A stretch of 64,000 bases of DNA. It comes from Pyrinomonadaceae bacterium (GTDB lineage: Bacteria > Acidobacteriota > Blastocatellia > Pyrinomonadales > Pyrinomonadaceae). Under the pieces are notes generated by a model. The model was not told where the DNA came from. It did no database searches and saw only the letters and a program-made list of their open reading frames with translations. Where the stretch lies: NCBI GenBank assembly GCA_030841085.1, contig JAVEDP010000020.1, positions 62,001-126,000 of the forward strand. Reading direction: 5' to 3'. Positions 7,958 to 20,469 of the stretch are shown here, in pieces; within the stretch, counting starts at the first letter, position 1, and the number at the start of each line of letters is the position of its first letter. Made by a program: the position numbers and the translations under genes.

Positions 7958-9997
7958 ATGCGACTAATCAAGCGCGCCGAAAAGGGATTGACCCTGGCAG
8001 CCGGCGGCCTTCACGACGTTATTCAGTCGGTTAATAAATACAAACCGAACCCGTCATTTACCCCCAAGTGGTCAGACAAGCCACTGCTGAAATCGTGGCA
8101 GAAGAGCAAGCCGACGCTTGGCTGGCCGCGCACGACCGATTCGCTTTGTCCCAATTGCGTGATCGAAGCCAGAGAATCAATTCTCAGCGGCAAGCAGGAT
8201 GTCAGCGTTCTTATTAATGAGAAGGTTGGCGAAATCAAGGCGCAGATTATTGAACGCGACGGCGAAGTCTGGATGGTAAAGGATTGTCCGATCCACGGGC
8301 ACTTCGAAGACATGATGGCCATCGACGTCAAGTTTCTGACGCACATCGAAAAAATGTTTCCCGGGCGCGACATCGATGCTCACAACGACGAGAAGCTGCA
8401 CAACCACGGCACCAGCACTATCAAGTATGGTCGCGGCGCTGTCTTGACGGTTGACCTTACGAATCGCTGCAACATGATGTGCGACCCCTGCTTCATGGAC
8501 GCGAACCAGGTTGGCTTCGTCCACGAGCTAAGCATGGATGAGATCAAGGAAATTCTCGACAATGCGATTTCGATTAAACCGCGCAGGCAAATGTCGGTTC
8601 AGTTTTCAGGTGGTGAGCCATCGATTTCCCCGCACTTTCTCGAGTCGATCAAATATTCACGCAAGGTTGGTTACAACAGCGTGCAAGCCGCGACAAACGG
8701 AATTGAATTTGCCAAGAGCAAAGAGTTCTGTCGTGAAGCTGCTGCCGCCGGCTTGCGTTATGTCTATCTGCAATTTGACGGCATCGGCAACGACGCCAAC
8801 AGTCATCGCCAGGTTGGCAATTTGTTTGACGTGAAGATGCGCGCCATCAATAACCTGCATGAAGCAGGTGTTGAGATCGTGCTCGTCACCACCCTCGTGA
8901 ACGGTATCAACAACGACCAGGTTGGTTCGATCGTTCGTTTCGCTCTCGACAATCCCAAGAAGATTGCGTTTCTTTCGTTCCAGCCGGTTTCGTTTACCGG
9001 TCGCGACGAAGAAATTACGCCGCAGCGTCGCCTGCAACAGCGCTATACGCTTTCGCATCTTGCGCACGACGTCAAGGATCAGGTCGGAATCACTGAGCCC
9101 ACGCGCGATTGGTTTCCTCTTTCTCTGATGGGCGCGTTTGCTGACTTTGCGGATTTGGTCCATGGACCACAGGCCGAATGGGGCCAGGTGTCCTGCGGTT
9201 GCCATCCGAACTGTGGCGTCGGCACGGCGGTGATGGTGGACAAGGAAACGCGCGAAATGCGCCCGGTACCGGAGTTCCTGAATATTCCGGGGCTGGTGAA
9301 AGATATGCAGAAGATCACTGACGCCGCGCGCGGCAAGTGGATGTCGAATTTGATGATGGGCCTGGCGCTGCTCAAGCATTACAACCCGTACAAATCGCCA
9401 TCGCAGTTTACGCTTTACGAACTCTTCAAAAAGTTTGACAAATCGTTTGGCTTAACCGGCAAAGATTACGGCAAGGTTGGCGGCGATCGCTCGGAAGACG
9501 ACATCAAGATGCGTCGCGCCGATCGTTGGAACTTCTTGTTTATCGCGGGCATGTGGTTCCAGGACTTGTTCAACTATGATTTCCGTCGCACAGAGATGTG
9601 CATCATTCCTTACGGAACGCAGGAAGGTGAGATTTCATTCTGTGCCTACAACACGGGCATTGGCTGGAGAAACATCATCGAGAACATGCATCAGAATGCA
9701 ACCGTCGCAAAATGGTATGAAGAGAATGGCCGTCACGAAATCTTTGCTCGCGGCAAGGAAGTCGAACTCGCGGATAAGGCACACAATATGGTCTTGAATC
9801 CGATCGACCTGGCGCGGCCCAACAAGCCCGAGATGGAAGGTCCCAAGACCGCGCATGAAGAAGCCGTGATGATGCGCAAGCTTTACCAGGAGATGGTACT
9901 GAAGAAGCAGCTCGATGTTAAGGAAGCCGATAAGCCGGTCCAGATTCAAAGTCTGAGCCGCAAAAAGCAGGAAGCACCTGAAGCGGTTCTCGCTTAG
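7958..9997 (+). CDS. Radical SAM protein of the tetraether/membrane-spanning lipid synthase (Tes/Mss, MJ0619) type
   Basis: 679 residues, soluble. The radical SAM cluster motif is C171-x3-C175-x2-C178 (LTNRCNMMCDPC), with the glycine-rich FSGGEPS strand after it. An N-terminal metal-site domain has C64PNC67 and DC110PIHGHFED. The C-terminal part has C413-G-C415-HPN-C419 and the paired MC548IIPYG and SFC562AYN motifs. This pattern of extra cysteines is what I know from archaeal Tes (MJ0619), which joins lipid tails carbon to carbon, and from bacterial homologues proposed to make membrane-spanning lipids. Acidobacteria of this group make iso-diabolic acid, so that is the likely product. The gene stands alone with a strong GAGGAG site. 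The substrate is inferred. Confidence 0.75.
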   Translation: MRLIKRAEKGLTLAAGGLHDVIQSVNKYKPNPSFTPKWSDKPLLKSWQKSKPTLGWPRTTDSLCPNCVIEARESILSGKQDVSVLINEKVGEIKAQIIERDGEVWMVKDCPIHGHFEDMMAIDVKFLTHIEKMFPGRDIDAHNDEKLHNHGTSTIKYGRGAVLTVDLTNRCNMMCDPCFMDANQVGFVHELSMDEIKEILDNAISIKPRRQMSVQFSGGEPSISPHFLESIKYSRKVGYNSVQAATNGIEFAKSKEFCREAAAAGLRYVYLQFDGIGNDANSHRQVGNLFDVKMRAINNLHEAGVEIVLVTTLVNGINNDQVGSIVRFALDNPKKIAFLSFQPVSFTGRDEEITPQRRLQQRYTLSHLAHDVKDQVGITEPTRDWFPLSLMGAFADFADLVHGPQAEWGQVSCGCHPNCGVGTAVMVDKETREMRPVPEFLNIPGLVKDMQKITDAARGKWMSNLMMGLALLKHYNPYKSPSQFTLYELFKKFDKSFGLTGKDYGKVGGDRSEDDIKMRRADRWNFLFIAGMWFQDLFNYDFRRTEMCIIPYGTQEGEISFCAYNTGIGWRNIIENMHQNATVAKWYEENGRHEIFARGKEVELADKAHNMVLNPIDLARPNKPEMEGPKTAHEEAVMMRKLYQEMVLKKQLDVKEADKPVQIQSLSRKKQEAPEAVLA

Positions 9998-15433: not shown

Positions 15434-15534
15434 ATCTATTCGTGGCACCCGACCTCGTCTTTAAAGCTGAGACACGCGCGTCTTCTACAGCCTGACGCAC
15501 CTGCCTTTTGCAAAGCCGTTTAGGAGACTCCTCG

Positions 15535-18500
15535 ATGTCGATCAACCTCTCAGCTGGCGCGACCAAGCCACCTGCTTTCCCCCTTGCTAACTACACAAAA
15601 CAGGTACGCTTCGCAGTCGTGATGTATGGTGGCGTTTCGCTGGCTATATACATCAATGGCGTGACTCAGGAACTTCTGCACATGGTGCGTTCGACATCAG
15701 AAGGTGCCACGGACGCTAAGGATCAGGCTGTTCCACTAAAAGGTTCGGCTCTACCAGATGGCTTGAACGGAACGGGGAGAGTCTATCGGAAACTCAGCTA
15801 TCTCTTATCAGACGATGTTTTGCTAGCGGAGTGTCGCGAGTTGCTGAACGGTGCGGATCTTAATCAACGCAACACACGCTTCAGAGAGAAACTTGATGCT
15901 CTCATAAACAACAATGCAGACATCAACACAGCTTTTATCGTAGATATTTTGTCAGGCACTTCAGCAGGCGGCATCAACGCCATCTACTTGGGCAAGGCCC
16001 TGGCAAACGATCAGTCAATGGATCGCCTCAAGGAGTTATGGATAAGCGAGGGGGACATTTCCCTGCTTCTGAATGACAAACGATCGGTTAGCGGCCTCAA
16101 CCTTAACTCTCAGGACCCTCCTCAGTCTCTGCTGAACAGCCGCCGCATGTATATGAAGCTTCTCAACGCGCTCGAAGACATGGACGGGACAAATACCGCT
16201 GGCAAAAAGCGTTCGTCACCGCACGTCGACGAGCTCGATCTCTTCATTACCACTACCGACATAGAGGGTGTGCCGGTAGCGCTGCGCCTTTCAGATATGA
16301 TCGTCTACGAACGCCGTCACCGGAACGTTTTCCATTTCAAATACGCCAGAGGCGACAAACCGGAAACCGACTTCAACGACTTCGAACGTTCATTAAATCC
16401 CTTCCTGGCTTTCGCCGCTCGCTGCACCTCGTCGTTCCCTTTTGCATTTGAGCCAATGAGACTCTGCGATATTGACGAGATTCTTAAACTTTCAGCTCGC
16501 TATCGCGATCAGGTCGATTGCAAATCCGACAGCCCGAAATGGCGGCGGTTTTTTAAAGATGTATCAGATCCCTCAGCGGGTCAGCCCAACCTAAGAGTGG
16601 AGATGCGCTCGTTTGGCGACGGCGGCTACCTTGATAACAAACCATTCAGCTATGCGATAGATACGCTTGTGAGGCGACACTCCGATGTCCCGGTAGATCG
16701 AAAGCTAATCTATATCGAGCCCTCTCCTGAGCACCCCGAAGACCAACCCGAACTGGATTACAAGCCGGACGCTCTGGCCAACGTCAAGGCTGCACTATTG
16801 GACCTTCCTCCCTACGAAACGATACGCGAAGACTTGCAAAAGGTACTGGAGCGCAACCAACTCATCGAACGAGTGAGAAGGATCATTAGCGGAACTGAAA
16901 GAGATGTTCACACCAATTTATTGGCGGACCTTGAGGAACCTTTTTCTGATAGGAAGGTTGAAACCGAAAAGAAGGATTCATCCGGGCGGGGGCAGCCTGA
17001 AAACGCTAACGGATCAAAGGGGCAGTTCTGGTCTGAGAGAACCTTGACCCAGATGGTCAAGCAGTATGGCCGCTATTACCTCCCTTACCGGCACTTACGT
17101 GTCTCCTCAGTAACAGACGATTTGGCACGTTTGGTGGCCCGACTTGCAAACTTCGACGAAAACTCCGATCTCTTCCTCGCGGTACGTTGCCTTATTCGGG
17201 CCTGGCGGGAAACAACCTATAAGGACAATGGGAAACCCTCGGTAAATGCGTTTCTCTGGTACTACGATTTTCAGTATCGGCTGCGCCGGCTGAGTTTCCT
17301 GCGCAACAAGCTGGATCAGCTCTACCTGTTCGACAAGCAACTTCTGAATGATTTGAAAACGTTTGAGAAAATCAATATCGACGTAAAACTACAATTGCGA
17401 GCAAACGATACGACGCTGGGACAGGCGGAAGCGCAGACACCCGAGTTGGTACTGCAATCTTGCGGCGCCGAATTGTCCGCACATCTATCACTGATAAAAA
17501 CGAAAGGAATGGAGAAAGAGCTACGGCGATTTCGTAAAGCGCTATTACTGACCAAGGGCGAGATCAATAACGTCTACAACGATTTGAGGGTGAGAGGGAG
17601 GGAACTTAACTCTCGCCGGATGGCGGCGAAGCTCGACCCTCAAAATGAGAAGGGTGAATTACCTGCGCCGCTATTCGAGAGCGTGAAAAATATTGGCCTG
17701 ACGGCGGAGCATCTCACTCAGATACTGGGTGCTGCACCGAACGGCCTCGGTGCTGCACGAAACAACACGTCGTCCGCGACGGAAGAAGATGTGTTCCAGC
17801 GTGCAAAGGACTTTCTCGACAGGAAAGGCACGATCAGAGAAAGGTTCGGTGAGACCGCCGAACTACTCAAAGAAGAACTCTCGGCTGTGCTGCAAGGCGC
17901 TCGAAAGGATTGCGTTGGTCTTTTTAACCCAATGATAGGCTTTCCAACAAAAAGCCTCCGAGGTCTTGCCCTACAAGCTTCAGACAAATCTGAGGATTGG
18001 AGCGAGCTGATGAATCTGGCTCCGGTTAGGGCCCTGCGTAGATATTTGGGTTATTACTACAACAACTTCGATGACTACGATCAGATAAGTTTTCCAATCT
18101 TTTACGAGGCAAGTGTCGGCGAGGCTGATCTGATCGAAGTGATCCGAATAAGTCCTGAAGACGCTACCACTCTTATCGATGAACGAGCGGAAAGGAAAAA
18201 CAGCTCAGACGGAGTGGGCCGGCAAAAGCTGGCCGGCACGGCATTGCACCACTTCGGCGCTTTTCTCGATCGCGTATGGAGAAAGAACGACATCATGTGG
18301 GGCAGGCTCGATGGAGCTGAACGGCTGCTAGCTGCGCTTCTGCCTGGGGCAGAAAACGACAAGGTGAGAACCGCTCTCATAGAAGAAGCCCACGAAGCGA
18401 TCCTTTTTGAAGAGATGTCGGAGGAGAGCCGCCTGCAACTCGGCGGCTTGATGACCGAAGCCATCGTGCGTGCCGGTTCGGGTGAGCCCATTGAAGAAGC

Positions 18501-20469
18501 CATCGGCAAGGTATTGGGCAACCTGGATTCGTCGCCAATCAAGACAGGATTGGAATCCGTGATTAGAACAAGTCTGGGCAATCAGGAGCTTCTGGAATTT
18601 GTCAGGAAAAGCTACAAAGTCAATCGCCGATTGGATCCCCAAATGCTGCTCAGGGCGCTTTCGCGCTCGACCCAAATCGTGGGCAAAGTATTCGAAGACA
18701 TCGCCAACAAGAATCAACTCGATGGCAAGAGCCTGGCTTGGATCGCTCGCTTAGGCCAAATGTTTTGGGGACTTGTGGAAGTGGCAGTGCCTAACAGCAT
18801 CGCCAATCTACTTTTGAAACGCTGGTTACAGGTGATTTATGTTTTCGAATTCTTCCTGATAGTCGGCGGCATCCTTTTGTCAAGACCTGGAGCACAACAG
18901 TTTGGATGGACCGCGTTCGGGATCACCGCCATCCTCAACATAATCATTCTGATGCTAAAAGACCGCATGCAAAACCGCCGCGGAGTTTTGTATGCAACTG
19001 GCTTGGTAATCGGAATTACCTTTCTTTTTCTTGCCGCCCTCGGAGCACTCGATGTTTCAGGCGCCGTCTTTAATGTCAAAGTCGGCGAGCTGCATCCGCG
19101 AGAGTGGTTGCGGCAGAACATCCAAGCAATACTGCCCCAAGGTGGCTGGTGGGTTTATCTGCCGGCGGGTTTGTTCATAGCAATCGCCCTGCTTTTGGTC
19201 GTTGCCCTCAACCTGATAAGCGCACACAACTTTCGTTGGCTGAGTATGCGAGTGAGCTTATGGAAGAAGTGGCTGATGCAGAGTCCGCTGGCAGCGTTAA
19301 TTCCCGGGGGAAAATTCAAGCCGATCAAGTTGGACAATAACAAACTCAAGGCTGGGATCAGGTCTTATCCTGGTCCAGATGAACAGCTCTACTTGTTGCC
19401 TTTTCATCTATCAGCAGAACCTCCCGTCGAGTGGACGAGAATCTTTCACCAGCAGTTCAAAGAGGCTGCTGAGGATGAGGGCGCGGGGGTGCAGACAACC
19501 GTTTACAACGATCAGTGTTGGCTGATCGCCCCAGCCCTCAGGATTAGGGCGCTCCATTCACGTTTGAAGGTCGCTTTGGACCGCGCCAATCAAAAATATG
19601 AAGTCGTCGCCAGGGAAGAGGCGCGGGAAAGTTATCTGAATCACAAGCGGTTGGTGCAATCCCTAAAAGAGCTGCCATCCAGCGATCTTCTCTATCCTGA
19701 GATAAAGGGGACGCTCCAACATCTCGCAGAAGACGCTACCAAGCTCAGCCGGTTGCTGAGCCGAGGTGGCCGGATTGTGGGGGTGTTAACCGCCCTAACA
19801 GGCCTGGCCATCCTGCTGTTTGTTGGCGCGAACTATGTTCGGGATCCAAATGCCAATGTCGTACTACCGGCGGGCCTTCATATGCCGGGACTGGCCCTCG
19901 AGCTTGTGCGTACGCCCGCAGAAGTGGATCAGATCATTAATGCCACAGCGACCTTAAACGAAAACAGTAGCCCTTCACTAGCGACACAGTCGCTGGTATC
20001 GAACATCAAAATGGACTACTGGTTTATCGCCTGGTATGCGCTGGTTCTGGGTAGTCTCAGCATTTGGCTCTTTAAGCGGGCCTATTCGAACAAGGCCAGG
20101 AATCTTGTAATCGCCGCCGGCTTTTTGATCCCGGTTGCGGCCATTTTTGATGTGTTAGAAAACATCAGAATGTTGCGAGTACTAACGGAAGGCCTTCGCA
20201 CCCAACAGGCTATAGATGCGATTCGGTTTGCCGGAACCATGAAGTGGGCAAGTCTTTTTGTCTCTATCGGCCTTTTGGCCTGGCTCTTTATTCCTCGGAA
20301 AGACAAGGCCGCCATCATCGGTTATCTTCTGCTCTCAACCGCACTGCTGGGATTGATCGGCCTGGTTTACGCTGGAGCAATTGAAGCCGCGTTCCTCATG
20401 ATGGGTCTCAGCATGTTCGTGCTTGGGGCCGTCGTGCTGATAACTCCCCGTAGACTCGTTCTGGAATGA
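15535..20469 (+). CDS. Very large patatin-like phospholipase with C-terminal membrane domain
   Basis: 1644 residues from the ATG at 15535, chosen for the AGGAG site 8 bases upstream. It starts with VRFAVVMYGGVSLAIYINGV, the glycine-rich entry of the patatin-related protein family (TIGR03607). The nucleophile is S143 in SGTSAGG, and the catalytic aspartate is D362 in FGDGGYLDNKPF, so the Ser-Asp dyad is intact. A long helical region (about 550-1100) follows, then roughly ten hydrophobic segments: a cluster at about 1105-1240 and a second at about 1420-1640 separated by a soluble part. The family hydrolyses acyl lipids. Membrane anchoring and size suggest action on the cell's own membrane. Substrate and trigger are unknown. 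Confidence 0.85.
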   Translation: MSINLSAGATKPPAFPLANYTKQVRFAVVMYGGVSLAIYINGVTQELLHMVRSTSEGATDAKDQAVPLKGSALPDGLNGTGRVYRKLSYLLSDDVLLAECRELLNGADLNQRNTRFREKLDALINNNADINTAFIVDILSGTSAGGINAIYLGKALANDQSMDRLKELWISEGDISLLLNDKRSVSGLNLNSQDPPQSLLNSRRMYMKLLNALEDMDGTNTAGKKRSSPHVDELDLFITTTDIEGVPVALRLSDMIVYERRHRNVFHFKYARGDKPETDFNDFERSLNPFLAFAARCTSSFPFAFEPMRLCDIDEILKLSARYRDQVDCKSDSPKWRRFFKDVSDPSAGQPNLRVEMRSFGDGGYLDNKPFSYAIDTLVRRHSDVPVDRKLIYIEPSPEHPEDQPELDYKPDALANVKAALLDLPPYETIREDLQKVLERNQLIERVRRIISGTERDVHTNLLADLEEPFSDRKVETEKKDSSGRGQPENANGSKGQFWSERTLTQMVKQYGRYYLPYRHLRVSSVTDDLARLVARLANFDENSDLFLAVRCLIRAWRETTYKDNGKPSVNAFLWYYDFQYRLRRLSFLRNKLDQLYLFDKQLLNDLKTFEKINIDVKLQLRANDTTLGQAEAQTPELVLQSCGAELSAHLSLIKTKGMEKELRRFRKALLLTKGEINNVYNDLRVRGRELNSRRMAAKLDPQNEKGELPAPLFESVKNIGLTAEHLTQILGAAPNGLGAARNNTSSATEEDVFQRAKDFLDRKGTIRERFGETAELLKEELSAVLQGARKDCVGLFNPMIGFPTKSLRGLALQASDKSEDWSELMNLAPVRALRRYLGYYYNNFDDYDQISFPIFYEASVGEADLIEVIRISPEDATTLIDERAERKNSSDGVGRQKLAGTALHHFGAFLDRVWRKNDIMWGRLDGAERLLAALLPGAENDKVRTALIEEAHEAILFEEMSEESRLQLGGLMTEAIVRAGSGEPIEEAIGKVLGNLDSSPIKTGLESVIRTSLGNQELLEFVRKSYKVNRRLDPQMLLRALSRSTQIVGKVFEDIANKNQLDGKSLAWIARLGQMFWGLVEVAVPNSIANLLLKRWLQVIYVFEFFLIVGGILLSRPGAQQFGWTAFGITAILNIIILMLKDRMQNRRGVLYATGLVIGITFLFLAALGALDVSGAVFNVKVGELHPREWLRQNIQAILPQGGWWVYLPAGLFIAIALLLVVALNLISAHNFRWLSMRVSLWKKWLMQSPLAALIPGGKFKPIKLDNNKLKAGIRSYPGPDEQLYLLPFHLSAEPPVEWTRIFHQQFKEAAEDEGAGVQTTVYNDQCWLIAPALRIRALHSRLKVALDRANQKYEVVAREEARESYLNHKRLVQSLKELPSSDLLYPEIKGTLQHLAEDATKLSRLLSRGGRIVGVLTALTGLAILLFVGANYVRDPNANVVLPAGLHMPGLALELVRTPAEVDQIINATATLNENSSPSLATQSLVSNIKMDYWFIAWYALVLGSLSIWLFKRAYSNKARNLVIAAGFLIPVAAIFDVLENIRMLRVLTEGLRTQQAIDAIRFAGTMKWASLFVSIGLLAWLFIPRKDKAAIIGYLLLSTALLGLIGLVYAGAIEAAFLMMGLSMFVLGAVVLITPRRLVLE

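Follow-up and report, generated by a model that had tools for sequence, protein, structure and literature searches.

The window analysed here is a 64,000-nucleotide stretch of a Pyrinomonadaceae genome (G000:C30:62001-126000), and the assembly that contains it is 4.69 Mb in 43 contigs and 98.9% complete. An ORF on the forward strand (7958..9997), already delineated in the earlier note, has an ATG start and encodes a 679-residue member of the tetraether synthase (Tes) family of radical SAM enzymes. We refer to this form of the enzyme as type A. The nearest named record, the MAG Blastocatellia bacterium MGR_bin138 (L005), encodes a protein 99.6% identical to the window protein. Several close relatives carry the name Pyrinomonadaceae, and we take these relatives to belong to subdivision 4. 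Elsewhere in the window, a 1653-residue ORF (15508-20469) was judged by eye to have a patatin-like start with a GTSAGG motif and apparent membrane segments at its C-terminus.

The gaps between the A gene and the ORFs flanking it are 305 and 592 bases. Neighbourhoods were compared within five genes of A at 74 loci of at least 6 kb, including the window and its near copy. Phosphomannomutase-like proteins were the commonest neighbours, at only 22 of the 74 loci, followed by SurE (17) and Pcm-like proteins (15), and no lipid-gene neighbourhood was found around A in this set. Operon context was rejected as a guide to function, and within the scope of this comparison A behaved as the standalone gene that it had been said to be. 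A carrier of the Fe-S type represented by ErpA and IscA, judged by sequence, was encoded within five genes of A at nine of the 74 loci (downstream in L056, L062, L063, L064, L077, L078 and L083, upstream in L055 and L074), where A was 69-73% identical to the window protein; we regard this proximity as a suggestive functional hint only. At one locus a truncated second copy of A (L059, 5715-6122, reverse strand), corresponding to 136 residues of the N-terminal part, was located beside the full gene.

The window protein matched the Pfam radical SAM domain PF04055 (E 8.8e-20) and the N-terminal ribbon domain PF23545 (E 1.3e-13). The best NCBIfam model was Tes (NF045702; 318.3 bits, E 7.9e-95), with a score below the 450-bit cut-off, and the second was TrsS (NF045646), with 208.3 bits and a cut-off of 490. 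The best solved structure by sequence was GDGT-MAS of Methanocaldococcus jannaschii, i.e. archaeal Tes or MJ0619 (7tol, E 8e-61), and the next reached E 1.4e-6. An AlphaFold2 model built with 80 relatives (pLDDT 92.1, pTM 0.90) retrieved 7tom in Foldseek (E 2.2e-37, TM 0.88 on the target). Fold comparison yielded Z 43.9 and an rmsd of 2.5 over 480 residues for 7tom and Z 39.8 for 7tol, with the next other entry at Z 20.4, and the similarity to GDGT-MAS extended over the whole length. From these data we conclude that A has the fold of archaeal Tes and is a member of its family. The best reading is that the protein is a Tes-family enzyme that couples lipid tails.

The designation given in the earlier note, a bacterial Tes/Mss-like enzyme, is retained in its first half and doubtful in its second, at least in the Thermotoga sense of Mss. 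Both enzymes are proposed to couple fatty acids tail to tail, and the reaction type would be identical to that of T. maritima Mss, for which heterologous expression in E. coli provided confirmation (PMC11604127). Mss models are also said to share the catalytic architecture of Tes (PMC13274423). However, a control search of the T. maritima genome identified no PF23545 protein at E <= 1e-3 and no match to the Tes model at E <= 1e-40, thresholds that the window protein passes easily; the comparison was made through this genome-wide control search. Tes and Mss were also treated as separate proteins in a survey (PMC11868695). These indirect controls speak against A being a true orthologue of the Thermotoga enzyme, which appears highly improbable. 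The GMGT synthase Gms is likewise a radical SAM enzyme that forms C-C bonds in lipids, but it belongs to the SPASM-domain enzymes (PMC11186832).

To examine the metal sites, 116 A-type sequences including that of the window were aligned with 23 and 22 sequences of two further acidobacterial types, B and C, and with residues 1-490 of MJ0619, the numbering of which was verified at 16 residues named in the published structure (PMC9433317). All eleven cysteines listed previously (C64, C67, C110, C171, C175, C178, C413, C415, C419, C548 and C562) were present in the window protein. Nine of these were found in all 116 A-type sequences, C64 in 115 and C67 in 114, a degree of conservation that is beyond chance; the twelfth cysteine, C258, was not conserved. 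The ribbon domain (match at residues 57-120) contains the CX2C...CX2H rubredoxin-like metal site of the Tes family, with C64, C67, C110 and H113 as ligands by alignment to MJ0619 (8147..8296), and this site was kept in A and B with few exceptions in A. The CX3CX2C motif of the radical SAM superfamily, C171/C175/C178 (8468..8491), was invariant among the aligned sequences.

The presumed catalytic C-terminal site, which in Tes comprises Met439 and Tyr459 (PMC9433317) and, by our assignment, three cysteines, is represented by C419, C548, C562, M532 and Y552. C419, a presumed ligand of the catalytic cluster, lies with the pair C413-x-C415 at 9194..9214, and the remaining residues lie at 9551..9643. 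The residues aligned with Tes C338, M439, C455 and C470, together with the radical SAM cysteines, were kept in all 139 A and B sequences, and the residue aligned with Y459 in 138 of them. Met439 and C73/C77/C80 are numbered ligand residues in the structure report, and C73/C77/C80 plus a conserved histidine hold the cluster designated [Fe4S4]N (PMC9433317); C338, C455, C470 and H83 are presumed ligands that we assigned from the alignment. C413 and C415 were invariant in the aligned A and B proteins. The equivalent residues of MJ0619 are Leu and Ser, and among the 22 C proteins the two positions were occupied by Cys in 6 and 16 sequences, respectively.

Although the eleven cysteine positions were correct, they do not make up the complete cysteine set of archaeal Tes that the earlier note had claimed, as the ligands of [Fe4S4]N are absent. 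The columns of Tes C73, C77 and C80 are occupied by K146, H150 and S153 in the window protein and that of H83 by K156 (residues 146-156, 8393..8425, containing an HxHG(S/T)S motif), and no cysteine occurs between C110 and C171. None of the four ligands was present in any of the 139 A and B sequences, in which the segment from the ribbon to the radical SAM motif contained at most one cysteine, whereas all four were present in 22/22 C sequences. Where the lost cluster would be, H148-x-H150 and G158-R159-G160 are invariant in A and B, and S153 is nearly so. The three metal sites for which a structural check had been suggested were thus recovered by their residues, but only as the trio of rubredoxin-like site, radical SAM cluster and C-terminal cluster. 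The window protein also differs from archaeal Tes in the C413-x-C415 pair and in about 55 additional residues at its N-terminus; the median number of residues ahead of the first ribbon cysteine was 64 in A, 63 in B and 43.5 in C, compared to 8 in MJ0619, so the extension is partly common to C. Residues 3-26 (7964..8035) form an amphipathic helix in the AlphaFold2 model, with a hydrophobic moment ranking third of 661 18-mers. This helix, which is without counterpart in M. jannaschii Tes, might make contact with the membrane.

We also considered that A could be an MJ0619-like radical SAM protein of non-lipid function, e.g. a TrsS-like protein or a pterin methyltransferase, as in the Pfam name HMPTM. 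The missed Tes cut-off and the second place of the TrsS model fit such an assignment. Moreover, a Chloracidobacterium homologue with an altered C-terminal site (L184, from G153) scored 309.5 bits on the Tes model and 305.2 on TrsS, and for this reason the score of the window protein is by itself no argument for Tes function; a second one (L183, from G087) scored 271.9 and 302.6 bits, respectively. At the C-terminal site, CMCC is replaced by CQCC, CVSD or SMTD in the three Tes/TrsS-like proteins examined from Chloracidobacterium and G115. These proteins share the ribbon, the radical SAM core and a distant homology with A, and they keep [Fe4S4]N, the opposite of the arrangement in A. The whole Met/Cys/Tyr set of the C-terminal site was kept in none of six other homologues (these three, two haloarchaeal proteins and one from Persicobacter). 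The earlier note had counted it as a refutation if the protein grouped with MJ0619-like proteins that have a different function; by these six homologues, that test came out on the Tes side. In addition, the Tes authors could not corroborate earlier findings and called methanopterin in the pocket unlikely (PMC9433317). On balance, a non-lipid function of A appears improbable.

The relationship of the three types was studied with two trees, a quick tree with three Tes/TrsS-like outgroups and a careful tree for which MJ0619 served as the root. In both, A and B formed one clade inside C. The stem of this clade was long (1.71 and 1.65, respectively), and its neighbours were the C proteins from family f6 and G091. 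SH-aLRT support for this clade was 100 in the quick tree, and support was 100/100 in the careful tree when read after re-rooting. C was monophyletic in 0 of 200 bootstrap trees, and B was not monophyletic, two changes being needed in each tree. As A and B are nested inside C, the simplest account is that [Fe4S4]N was lost once, in an ancestor of Tes type; judging from these trees, which cover acidobacterial sequences and the single archaeal sequence MJ0619 and include the long A+B stem, the common ancestor of A and B was probably a Tes-type enzyme that lost this cluster. We conclude that, within the family of archaeal tetraether synthase, the window protein represents a separate branch in which one iron-sulfur cluster of the archaeal enzyme has been lost.

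Scores and identities also set C apart from A and B. The C proteins, which are about 540 residues long, were 36-45% identical to MJ0619, compared to 29-33% for A and B. Each of the 23 genomes with C, and no other genome of the sample, had a protein above the Tes cut-off, which no A or B match reached; five C proteins scored singly reached 472 to 570 bits. Identity to MJ0619 was below 30% for 33 of the 139 A and B sequences and for none of the 22 C sequences. A 30% identity filter such as that of a published survey (PMC11868695) can thus miss the A/B branch, although MJ0619 was not the query of that survey.

Of 159 acidobacterial genomes, 57 had A, 24 had B, 23 had C and 88 had at least one type. 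Named records carrying A among 80 loci included Chloracidobacterium, Aridibacter, Sulfopaludibacter, Bryobacteraceae, subdivision 13 and MAGs of gp2, gp4, gp5 and gp18. The genome of the window contains a second Tes-family copy that the earlier note had overlooked, a B paralogue (G000:C11:94528-96345; L002 1393-3411; L162) that is 54% identical to A. This protein keeps the catalytic residues and likewise lacks [Fe4S4]N. One consequence to be considered is a division of labour in which B is the main tail coupler and A carries out related coupling of other selectivity, e.g. on ether-bound or extra-methylated chains, at sn-1 versus sn-2, or towards macrocyclic versus membrane-spanning products. 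The intact catalytic residues of both proteins and the joint presence of A and B in 9 of 10 same-family genomes of the phylum sample, the window genome included, are in keeping with this arrangement, as is the richness of subdivision 4 in ether-bound iso-diabolic acid (PMC13274423). However, A is the wider form, and three Chloracidobacterium genomes contain A without B. Furthermore, in a larger set of 119 listed same-family genomes, 73 had at least two matches, 41 had one and 5 had none (E <= 1e-60, fragments counted), and among those at least 90% complete a single match was found in 25 of 72. In view of these distributions we consider such a division of labour unlikely. The proposal that two copies are the rule for the family was rejected on the same counts; since 41 genomes have a single match, the A/B pair is common but not the rule.

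The three Chloracidobacterium genomes were assigned by their A proteins, which were 91-96% identical to named Chloracidobacterium records. B and C were absent, and A was the sole type with a full Tes C-terminal site among the types aligned. We had regarded these genomes as a case with a single family member. That interpretation was withdrawn when a search with the Tes model identified two further homologues in each genome; the scores given above for L184 and L183 represent one protein of each kind. Chloracidobacterium is known to contain iso-diabolic acid (PMC12816986), but the case is not clean because of these two homologues, one of which is L184; the latter could be the coupling enzyme there.

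Published lipid analyses bear out the statement that the lineage contains iso-diabolic acid. This lipid was reported from subdivisions 1, 3, 4 and 6 of seven surveyed, with much of it ether-bound in subdivision 4 (PMC13274423), and from Pyrinomonas K22 (PMC4644332). These lipids of relatives fit tail coupling by A. E. aggregans contains iso-diabolic acid and some brGDGT (PMC13274423); its one Tes homologue is 32% identical to M. acetivorans Tes, while values of 42% and 40% were reported for Koribacter and Solibacter (PMC8941075), the latter with two Tes homologues (PMC10087280). By comparison with our identities, E. aggregans probably has an A/B-type enzyme only and Koribacter and Solibacter C-type enzymes, a typing that compares identities to two different archaeal proteins, M. 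acetivorans Tes and MJ0619. GDGTs were reported to be lacking in some Halobacteria despite the presence of Tes homologues (PMC8941075). A role of bacterial Tes homologues in making membrane-spanning lipids was suggested in 2022 (PMC8941075) and once more, for Solibacter, in a later paper (PMC10087280), so the function put forward here is not new in print, and their activity was still described as experimentally unconfirmed in 2025 (PMC11868695). We found no demonstrated activity of an A/B-branch enzyme in the accessible literature, and the titles and abstract openings of the open-licence literature described no acidobacterial branch without [Fe4S4]N. The cluster loss, the split into three types and the paralogue pair thus appear to be new.

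Taken together, A is probably a radical SAM enzyme of the Tes family that couples membrane-lipid tails in soil acidobacteria and acts on bacterial iso-C15 lipids. The data above establish its family, fold, residue sets, position in the tree and distribution, whereas substrate, product, reaction steps and electron route are inferred, the steps being taken over from M. jannaschii Tes. In that enzyme the C-terminal cluster binds the substrate carbon through a C-S bond, and two SAM are consumed per bond (PMC9433317). Two phospholipids would enter with one tail each, and SAM would be split by the cluster bound to C171/C175/C178. The resulting 5'-deoxyadenosyl radical would abstract a hydrogen from one iso-C15 tail at its terminal methyl, and the carbon radical would be stored through a C-S bond to the C-terminal [Fe4S4] cluster (C419/M532/C548/C562). 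The product would be a membrane-spanning lipid in which two fatty-acid tails are joined end to end. Without [Fe4S4]N, electrons probably reach the radical SAM cluster directly or via the rubredoxin-like iron. In M. jannaschii Tes both the ribbon iron and [Fe4S4]N are located at the surface (PMC9433317), and loss of the latter need not halt the chemistry. Counting against tail coupling by A are its score, which at 318 bits falls short of the cut-off of 450, the loss of one cofactor site of the model enzyme, an organism represented by an assembly, and a possible main role of B. Branched tetraethers and iso-diabolic acid are the basis of soil and lake temperature proxies, and acidobacteria are their main cultured makers, with enzymes still unproven. 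Three homologue types are now told apart in this phylum with a predicted cofactor content for each, and the A/B branch offers a direct test of whether Csp3-Csp3 coupling needs [Fe4S4]N.

We searched the genomes for a DUF2229 gene, which we used as a stand-in for the Ger/PlsA activator. It was present in 9 of 65 genomes with only A and/or B, in 16 of 23 with C and in 13 of 71 that lack all three types, and the T. maritima control was positive. Neither the window genome nor any of the nine same-family genomes sampled alongside it contained the gene; another explanation would therefore be needed for ether lipids in this lineage. A heme-copper oxidase match was obtained in 63 of the 65 genomes with only A and/or B (weakly in G086), in 16 of the 23 with C and in 52 of the 71 with none (Fisher p 0.0009). 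This association is weak, because the statistic ignores shared descent and most genomes with none of the types have the oxidase. We tentatively raise the possibility, which we do not favour strongly, that A and B constitute an oxygen-adapted Tes branch. One ancestor in the Acidobacteriota would have dropped the exposed [Fe4S4]N and fixed the Cys-x-Cys pair beside, in sequence, a cysteine of the catalytic cluster; aerobes would then make membrane-spanning ester lipids without the Ger/PlsA ether machinery, and A and B would share tail coupling where both occur. In G067 and G111 the A and C genes share a strand, with about 6 to 8 kb between their starts (L150 3991-5979 and 11625-13478; L151), and DUF2229 is located elsewhere in the genome.

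Several observations concern more distant homologues. On two haloarchaeal plasmids (L196 and L197) a Tes-like radical SAM gene is followed by a gene with a methyltransferase domain, and the residues aligned with Met439, Tyr459 and the [Fe4S4]N ligands are altered. Neither protein has a Cys at the aligned N-cluster positions; one has other Cys residues inside an insertion, which weakens the case for an independent loss of the cluster in these homologues. Selenocysteine in a B protein (G112) was rejected, as the reported TGA is the normal stop of the gene. A homologue nearest to the Tes/TrsS-like proteins (L200, G077:C89) contains an in-frame TGA five codons before the Cys equivalent to C419, near the place of C413 and C415, and its position would fit a selenocysteine there.
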